Shown: piece after piece, positions 485-7,635 of the stretch | Layout: each line of letters begins with the position of its first letter | How positions within the stretch are numbered: the first letter of the stretch is position 1 | Source: Paraburkholderia sp. | GTDB taxonomy: Bacteria; Pseudomonadota; Gammaproteobacteria; Burkholderiales; Burkholderiaceae | Direction: 5' to 3' | Assembly: GCA_004322045.1 (NCBI GenBank) | Contig: SCRN01000011.1 | Location: forward strand, 1-64,000 | DNA length: 64,000 bases | The notes under the pieces: model-generated | Seen by the model: only the letters and a program-made list of their open reading frames with translations | What the model was told of the DNA's origin: nothing | Database searches by the model: none | Program-made: the position numbers and the translations under genes

Positions 485-577
485 AAAAAAAAGCCCAAAC
501 TCTCGGCTCGGGCTTAATCCACCTAAGGAGGAGGGTGGAGGAGACATGCGGAGATTGTCGAACGCGACAACCAATAG
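485..577 (-). ncRNA. Candidate small RNA with anti-Shine-Dalgarno motifs
   Basis: This minus-strand unit of about 92 nt has its own promoter (583-611). In transcript order it shows: a 6-bp hairpin with a 4-nt loop near the 5' end (arms 565-570 and 555-560); a C-rich, probably unpaired stretch holding CUCCUCC (543-537) and CCUCCUU (531-525); and an intrinsic terminator (arms 515-507 and 499-491, some G-U pairs) followed by eight U (492-485). CCUCCUU matches the 16S rRNA anti-Shine-Dalgarno core. No convincing ORF is present. It ends over 300 nt upstream of rplM, which has its own promoter, so it is unlikely to be the rplM leader. That it is transcribed, and that it pairs with ribosome-binding sites, are inferences. 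Confidence 0.6.
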
Positions 578-582
578 GAGGC

Positions 583-611
583 ATTGTACAGATCGAATGC
601 CGAGTAGGCAA
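583..611 (-). promoter_or_regulatory. sigma-70 promoter of the candidate small RNA
   Basis: On the minus strand, TTGCCT (606-611, 4/6 to the -35 consensus) and TACAAT (583-588, 5/6 to the -10 consensus) are separated by exactly 17 nt. The predicted start is near 576-577, just before the 5' hairpin of the candidate RNA. Confidence 0.65.
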
Positions 612-756
612 GAAAATTTGCATTGCGAAAATGCATCTCATAATGTGATAAACCAAGCCAATCTGGGACGACGCAAAAGACGCGCTCTGCCCACTGCGCT
701 CCCCGAGGCTACAATGCCAGTCCGACACTAGTATTGGCTACGACAGCGGAGTTGCT

Positions 757-1211: not shown

Positions 1212-1230
1212 CTATATGGAATTGGGGAGC

Positions 1231-1640
<410 letters not shown>

Positions 1641-7517: not shown

Positions 7518-7635
7518 CTCTGTTCGTATGACGCATCGCGGCGAAAGCCGATGCGGCCGCCATGCCGCGCGGCGCAGCGCCGCAGACGCGCTCCGCGCGG
7601 GTCGTTCCAGTGGCAACGTTGATGCAGTGCACCAT

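Follow-up and report, generated by a model that had tools for sequence, protein, structure and literature searches.

A small RNA gene between rplM and an OsmC-like gene

Within the window, meaning here the whole 64-kb stretch of Paraburkholderia DNA that was analysed, the space between rplM and an OsmC-like gene holds a small RNA gene on the minus strand (577-485), which is transcribed away from the OsmC gene and runs from a promoter through a 5′ hairpin and two unpaired, CU-rich stretches to a terminator (Table 1). A transcription unit with -35 and -10 elements 17 bp apart, a 5′ hairpin, and an eight-U terminator had been proposed in the first-pass annotation, and both the promoter scan and the fold prediction bear it out. 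The promoter elements agree with consensus at 9 of 12 positions, promoter-like sites number three in 2 kb against a shuffle mean of 0.4, and the predicted fold of 577-485 reaches -31.2 kcal/mol, compared with -20.9 ± 3.1 kcal/mol for shuffled sequences (z -3.3; 1 of 200 shuffles equally good). The same annotation had placed CUCCUCC and CCUCCUU together in one single strand; both motifs are indeed present, but the first CUCC lies 5′ of, and partly in, the stem of hairpin 2, and CUCCUCCUUA forms the loop. A hidden ORF over the RNA was rejected, the frames across this stretch being mechanical. Elsewhere in the window, positions 1227-1638 (minus strand) match RNase P RNA class A at 294 bits.

Table 1. 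Features of the RNA gene and its upstream region, in window coordinates.
Feature	Position	Strand	Basis and remarks
Candidate PhaR box TTTCGCAATGCAAAT	616-630	-	Directly upstream of the -35 element; PhaR-matrix score 15.25
-35 element TTGCCT	606-611	-	Promoter scan and locus alignment; position where many relatives have the box TTGCRTYGCACAA
-10 element TACAAT	583-588	-	Promoter scan
Primary transcript, ~93 nt	485-577	-	Putative start at ~577
5′ leader hairpin, four-base CGUU loop	553-572	-	Fold prediction
Unpaired stretch	540-552	-	Fold prediction
RF02278 body, 62-nt 3′ part, probable processed form	485-546	-	Rfam match; processing site published for NcS27
Pairing site 1, UGUCUCCUCC	537-546	-	Last three bases belong to the stem of hairpin 2
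Hairpin 2	518-539	-	Fold prediction; loop at 533-524
Pairing site 2, the loop of hairpin 2	524-533	-	Contains CCUCCUU
Intrinsic terminator, eight U	515-491, U run ends 485	-	Fold prediction

Comparison with Rfam, as the first-pass annotation had suggested, places the RNA in RF02278 (Betaproteobacteria_toxic_sRNA) with 69 bits (E 7.9e-12) against a cut-off of 50, the match covering the whole model (1-64). RF02278 is a betaproteobacterial family based on a 2012 paper, which runs counter to the earlier remark that RNAs of the anti-Shine-Dalgarno type are mainly alphaproteobacterial, and its name derives from the growth inhibition reported on cloning in E. coli (PMC4603805, PMC7011215). Other families were tried and rejected, including MmgR/RF00519 (15.2 bits, cut-off 41), anti-hemB RF02837 (26.8 bits, cut-off 49.5), and alpha-r14, SorY, and suhB/mmgR (all below their Rfam cut-offs), as was membership of the tandem CCUCC hairpins of the Cuckoo/CcsR type, the three matches in the source genome each standing on its own contig. 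Anti-hemB and RF02278 members do yield sub-threshold cross-matches, suggestive of one common architecture.

The three RF02278 members of the source genome score 77.9, 71.1, and 69 bits, the window copy being single and non-tandem. At E 0.001, a search of sampled genomes gave at least one match in 107 of 120 from the bacterial family of the source and in 99 of 150 from the order, compared with 0 of 14 control genomes. Two genomes from one family of the order (G126 and G174) have nine and eight matches listed, respectively, some of them a few hundred bases apart, and two further genomes of that family have one and two listed. Among aligned members (sets of 16 and 22), GUCUCCUCC, the complement of GGAGGAGAC, is near-invariant. 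In the set of 22, three of the six predicted pairs of hairpin 2 have changes on both sides, the same three having two to four broken or gapped cells each, and RNAalifold on this mixed set recovered hairpin 2 alone, the terminator being absent from the consensus.

Conservation of the RNA among relatives, another expectation of the first-pass annotation, is evident at the locus itself. By a motif look, the RNA was recognised in the same place at at least 43 of 80 OsmC loci; in one of these, L040, the 3′ half does not align. An rplM motif is present at 68 of the 80, in each case on the minus strand. Records with the RNA in this place are named Burkholderia, Paraburkholderia, Caballeronia, Pandoraea, Cupriavidus, Ralstonia, Herbaspirillum, Collimonas, Glaciimonas, Noviherbaspirillum, and Parvibium, together with one Rhodocyclaceae record. 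All six loci that were run against Rfam matched RF02278, at 56-75 bits, and the nearest named locus by OsmC protein is that of Trinickia soli (96%). In five Cupriavidus rplM loci (L028, L030, L031, L043, and L046) the RNA body is retained and a GC-rich block stands in place of the usual promoter stretch. The gene order rplM-sRNA-OsmC is identical in Burkholderia aenigmatica (L016; RF02278 at 74.6 bits), a member of the cepacia complex.

This layout leads directly to NcS27 of Burkholderia cenocepacia J2315, an RNA reported to lie on the minus strand between BCAL3348a and BCAL3349, with BCAL3348 being a ribosomal protein gene (PMC4603805, PMC5688073), and to measure 92 nt by dRNA-seq and RACE, with a processing site (PMC5688073). 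BCAL3349 would be the OsmC-like gene, and in B. aenigmatica and other relatives the RNA has the corresponding position and strand, with rplM on one side and the OsmC gene on the other. From synteny, strand, and length we infer that the window RNA is the orthologue of NcS27, because the two share locus, strand, and family and match in length.

Predicted pairing with ribosome-binding sites

By analogy with its relatives, the strand formed by UGUCUCCUCC/GUCUCCUCC and the CUCCUCC loop could cover ribosome-binding sites. The first-pass annotation had likewise envisaged pairing with such sites, in agreement with the published reading of NcS27, whose CU-rich stretches are predicted to cover them (PMC4603805, PMC5688073). 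Around start codons lie 55-80% of the predicted interactions in print (PMC5688073), and 70 of 92 genes reported as raised in work on S17 of Bordetella have a complement at or near the ribosome-binding site (PMC11722255).

In the source genome, pairing energies for the first 24 nt of the RNA were -10.1 kcal/mol at the rplM start, -9.8 at the osmC start, -10.5 for phaP, -16.2 for phaB, and -11.6 to -18.5 for six genes picked for a GGAGACA site; a value for phaR, based on a guessed start, was set aside. Control in cis of rplM or OsmC was rejected on account of this weak pairing, though the gap to the other genes is small. The sequence GGAGACA-N-ATG occurs 131 times in the source genome, about twice the mean for GGAG[C/G/T]CA (190 over the three), and no target list was drawn from this count because the excess may be ordinary ribosome-binding-site composition.

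It is conceivable that the RNA acts as a cuckoo-type anti-Shine-Dalgarno RNA, globally on ribosome-binding sites, and ties growth rate to the ribosomal protein genes. The CCUCCUU in the loop of hairpin 2, which equals the core of the 16S 3′ tail, and the adjacency to rplM would suit such a role; against it, the paralogues lie on other contigs and the conserved GUCUCCUCC is longer than the anti-Shine-Dalgarno core. Moreover, over-expression of NcS27 is reported to slow growth and silencing to speed it, with effects on growth that vary with the substrate and are described for phenylalanine, tyrosine, glycerol, and galactose (PMC5688073, PMC10987360). We therefore consider global action of this kind very improbable, and the growth-rate link to a ribosomal operon that was first suggested falls away, with rplM being merely a neighbour and the evidence pointing to carbon storage instead.

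A probable PhaR box in the promoters of the family

That evidence begins with the promoters. Aligned loci from several genera have TTGCRTYGCACAA over the -35 despite differences in the remaining promoter, and the two paralogues of the source genome carry TTGCAATGCATCA and TTGCATCGCACCA there, such that TTGC-N3-GCA-N-CA is found at the -35 of both and of most other paralogues inspected. An upstream motif shared by three B. cenocepacia copies has been published, its regulator going unnamed in the searchable text (PMC5688073). Judged by its sequence, the -35 box of the family is the motif of Herbaspirillum PhbF on the opposite strand, the footprinted site of which is TG[N]TGC[N]3GCAA (PMC3206438), and it fits the core YGCRNYGCR of Sinorhizobium PhaR, a protein reported to shift the promoter of mmgR, itself an sRNA gene (PMC12542648). 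The source genome encodes phaR, beside frames that by eye resemble phaA and phaB, and its phasin promoter contains three PhaR-like boxes.

A matrix was first built from these three phasin-promoter boxes and 11 Sinorhizobium sites, the latter hand-picked from the available part of a published table with two of the four exoH sites omitted. The 136 promoters scored were drawn from the matches listed, with L182 (no clear start), L265 (a duplicate of L002), and L190 (no start motif) excluded. With this matrix, 97 of the 136 exceeded the 99th percentile of 1360 shuffles, and 77 of these 97 had the site over the -35, between -34 and -37 relative to the RNA body. When 2915 stretches of flanking DNA served as background, 111 promoters exceeded the 99th percentile, and 103 did so with the 11 Sinorhizobium sites alone; 25 Sinorhizobium sites, with none from the source genome, passed 98. 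Across the family, the promoter box is thus present above chance. The pattern alone, TTGCRNYGCANCA, is unspecific genome-wide, with 44 matches in the source genome versus 27 for a reversed control, so that position and promoter context carry the weight.

Position raises the question of whether the TTGC-N3-GCA seen at the -35 belongs to the promoter as such, or to a regulator other than PhaR. TTG is itself a -35 signal, and most passing sites do fall there, but 300 column-permuted matrices marked a mean of only 2, and at most 23, of the 136 promoters. The box is also rare where phaR is absent, and relatives of the RNA adjoin phaR, as described below; a feature unconnected with PhaR is accordingly an unlikely explanation.

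The tie to phaR was examined across the order in 82 members among the matches listed (five of them near contig ends, with the RNA start placed by motif), phaR being scored as absent from any genome not among 102 distinct phaR-positive ones. The shuffle threshold was passed by 24 of 54 members from genomes with phaR versus 1 of 28 from genomes without it (Fisher 8.7e-5), leaving 30 of the 54 below it; with the 25-site matrix and a genomic threshold, the counts were 36 of 54 versus 1 of 28. Among genomes with a completeness of 90% or more, the box was present in 18 of 37 with phaR versus 0 of 19 without, and by sampled family in 13 of 18 versus 0 of 10 (p 2.5e-4). Such tests are not independent, because the genomes are related, and at the level of single genera the contrast is seen in g8 and g22, with g16 and g34 being neutral. 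The single passing member without phaR (G239) comes from a genome of 85% completeness, whose genus includes two genomes that carry phaR. In the set of 136 promoters, the phaR-less genomes at least 90% complete had the box in 0 of 5 members, and one that is 83% complete (G053) had it in both members scored. At the level of the family, the box tracks the presence of phaR. Many members from phaR-less genomes (L317, L318, L319, L325, L332, L333, and others) have by eye an alternative upstream motif, approximately ATATTAGATAATTCTAATA, and a different regulator or promoter type possibly took over in these cases.

The window copy departs from this pattern, since its -35 box has decayed to TTGCCTACTCGGCA, and that of its nearest named relative, Trinickia soli, is likewise lost. 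A candidate box does adjoin the promoter (616-630; its strand is irrelevant because the matrix is symmetric), and it is the second-best PhaR-matrix site of the window. The best, TGATGCAGTGCACCA at 7620-7634 (score 16.7), lies near frames that by eye resemble a LysR-like regulator and an MFS-like transporter. With the window included, 32 of 44 rplM-locus promoters pass the genomic threshold, among them one (L029) whose site is the leader hairpin itself and three (L016, L041, and L042) that pass narrowly with a GC-to-GT change; the other 12, which include all five Cupriavidus records, fail this more lenient genomic threshold. The box at 616-630 overlaps a plus-strand promoter-like site (617-644) facing the OsmC gene, so the gene served is ambiguous and the claim for PhaR is weaker here than for the family. 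With the box decayed at the -35, it is therefore possible, in our tentative estimation, that the RNA is an NcS27 orthologue whose window copy is free of PhaR, with the box serving the divergent OsmC gene and some other starvation signal acting on the RNA. Standing against this are the position of the box beside the -35 of the RNA, its rank within 64 kb, and the boxes that both paralogues of the source genome carry at their own -35. PhaR control of the window copy is thus moderately supported by its sequence, and PhaR control of the RF02278 family strongly supported.

Six weaker relatives of the RNA, outside the 82 members scored above, were found within 1.5 kb of phaR among 115 places listed in phaR genomes (chance ~5e-10). 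They score 32-40 bits, under the RF02278 cut-off of 50, and keep the GUCUCCUCC start and the terminator T-run, and at all six loci the interval from the phaR start to the next gene or RNA contains two boxes with a spacing of 56-58 bp. Five of the six RNAs are preceded, at a distance of 1 to 67 bases, by the end of a small gene that diverges from phaR, and by Pfam three of these genes are phasins above the cut-off, one falls just below it, and one has no match. A phasin 3′ RNA of the kind in L310-L314 was not seen by eye in the 200 bases downstream of the source-genome phasin.

A probable link to carbon storage, and comparison with known systems

Because of the promoter boxes, their tracking of phaR, and the relatives beside phaR, the RF02278 family probably constitutes the RNA arm of the regulon governed by PhaR, a sensor of PHB. 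The RNA would be made as a transcript of ~93 nt, probably with later trimming to 62 nt, whereupon the UGUCUCCUCC strand and the CUCCUCC loop would pair with ribosome-binding sites rich in purines and block translation of a set of mRNAs, a step supported in print for relatives. PhaR is a repressor thought to leave DNA on binding PHB, and so, under carbon excess, the RNA would rise as granules form, damping uptake and catabolism. That NcS27 is reported to be induced in biofilm, under starvation, and in glucose medium (PMC5688073) fits such control. We regard this account as a whole, with an NcS27 orthologue that blocks ribosome-binding sites, a family under PhaR, and RNA levels that go up with granules, as fairly likely.

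A broader proposition, on balance also likely, holds that the double-hairpin RNAs of the Burkholderiales form the RNA arm of a PHB-granule regulon, in which titration of PhaR by PHB releases an sRNA that closes the ribosome-binding sites of uptake and catabolic genes, with a possible origin at the phasin 3′ end and PhaR perhaps the repressor of Bordetella S17. The oldest layout may have been a phasin transcript opposite phaR with the RNA at its 3′ end, and the free-standing RNA genes may be later copies that kept the PhaR box at the -35.

RNAs of the RF02278/NcS27 type are known already; their control by PhaR is absent from the literature searched, in which Sass 2019 was represented only by its citation and a review passage. 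In 2017 the control of accumulation of these sRNAs was stated to be unknown (PMC5688073), and a 2021 review called the riboregulation of PHB in Cupriavidus undeciphered (PMC8401924). A link to PhaR, if true, would explain why these RNAs rise in glucose medium and in growth arrest, and would couple a brake on translation to the storage of carbon in a large order that comprises soil, plant, and industrial bacteria.

Among known systems, the Cuckoo/CcsR RNAs of alphaproteobacteria have a CUCC-rich loop between stem and terminator, as does the window RNA, and occur as tandem arrays of CCUCC hairpins. The window copy is single, in contrast, and no such family was among its Rfam matches. Likeness to NcS27 is far closer: both RNAs belong to one sequence family, lie on the rplM side and on the same strand, have lengths of 92-93 nt, and consist of a 5′ leader and a short body, whereas the host genus differs and PhaR control does not figure in the NcS27 text searched.

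S17 of Bordetella pertussis has a matching 5′ end, is trimmed by RNase E to 67 nt, and is reported to repress at ribosome-binding sites in an Hfq-dependent manner; its promoter has the -35 TTGCAT, and repression by an unnamed factor has been postulated (PMC11722255). That factor might be PhaR. Unlike what is described for the window RNA and its family, S17 is raised in the Bvg+ mode, arises from a 190-nt precursor, and is non-toxic when over-expressed in E. coli (PMC11722255).

Finally, MmgR (alpha-r8, RF00519) of Sinorhizobium meliloti is reported as an sRNA that is bound and repressed by PhaR and tied to PHB (PMC12542648, PMC8401924), yet by Rfam it is no sequence relative of the window RNA (15.2 bits, cut-off 41). 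If the analogy holds, Sinorhizobium has the same PhaR-sRNA wiring, achieved there through an RNA that is, by Rfam, unrelated.
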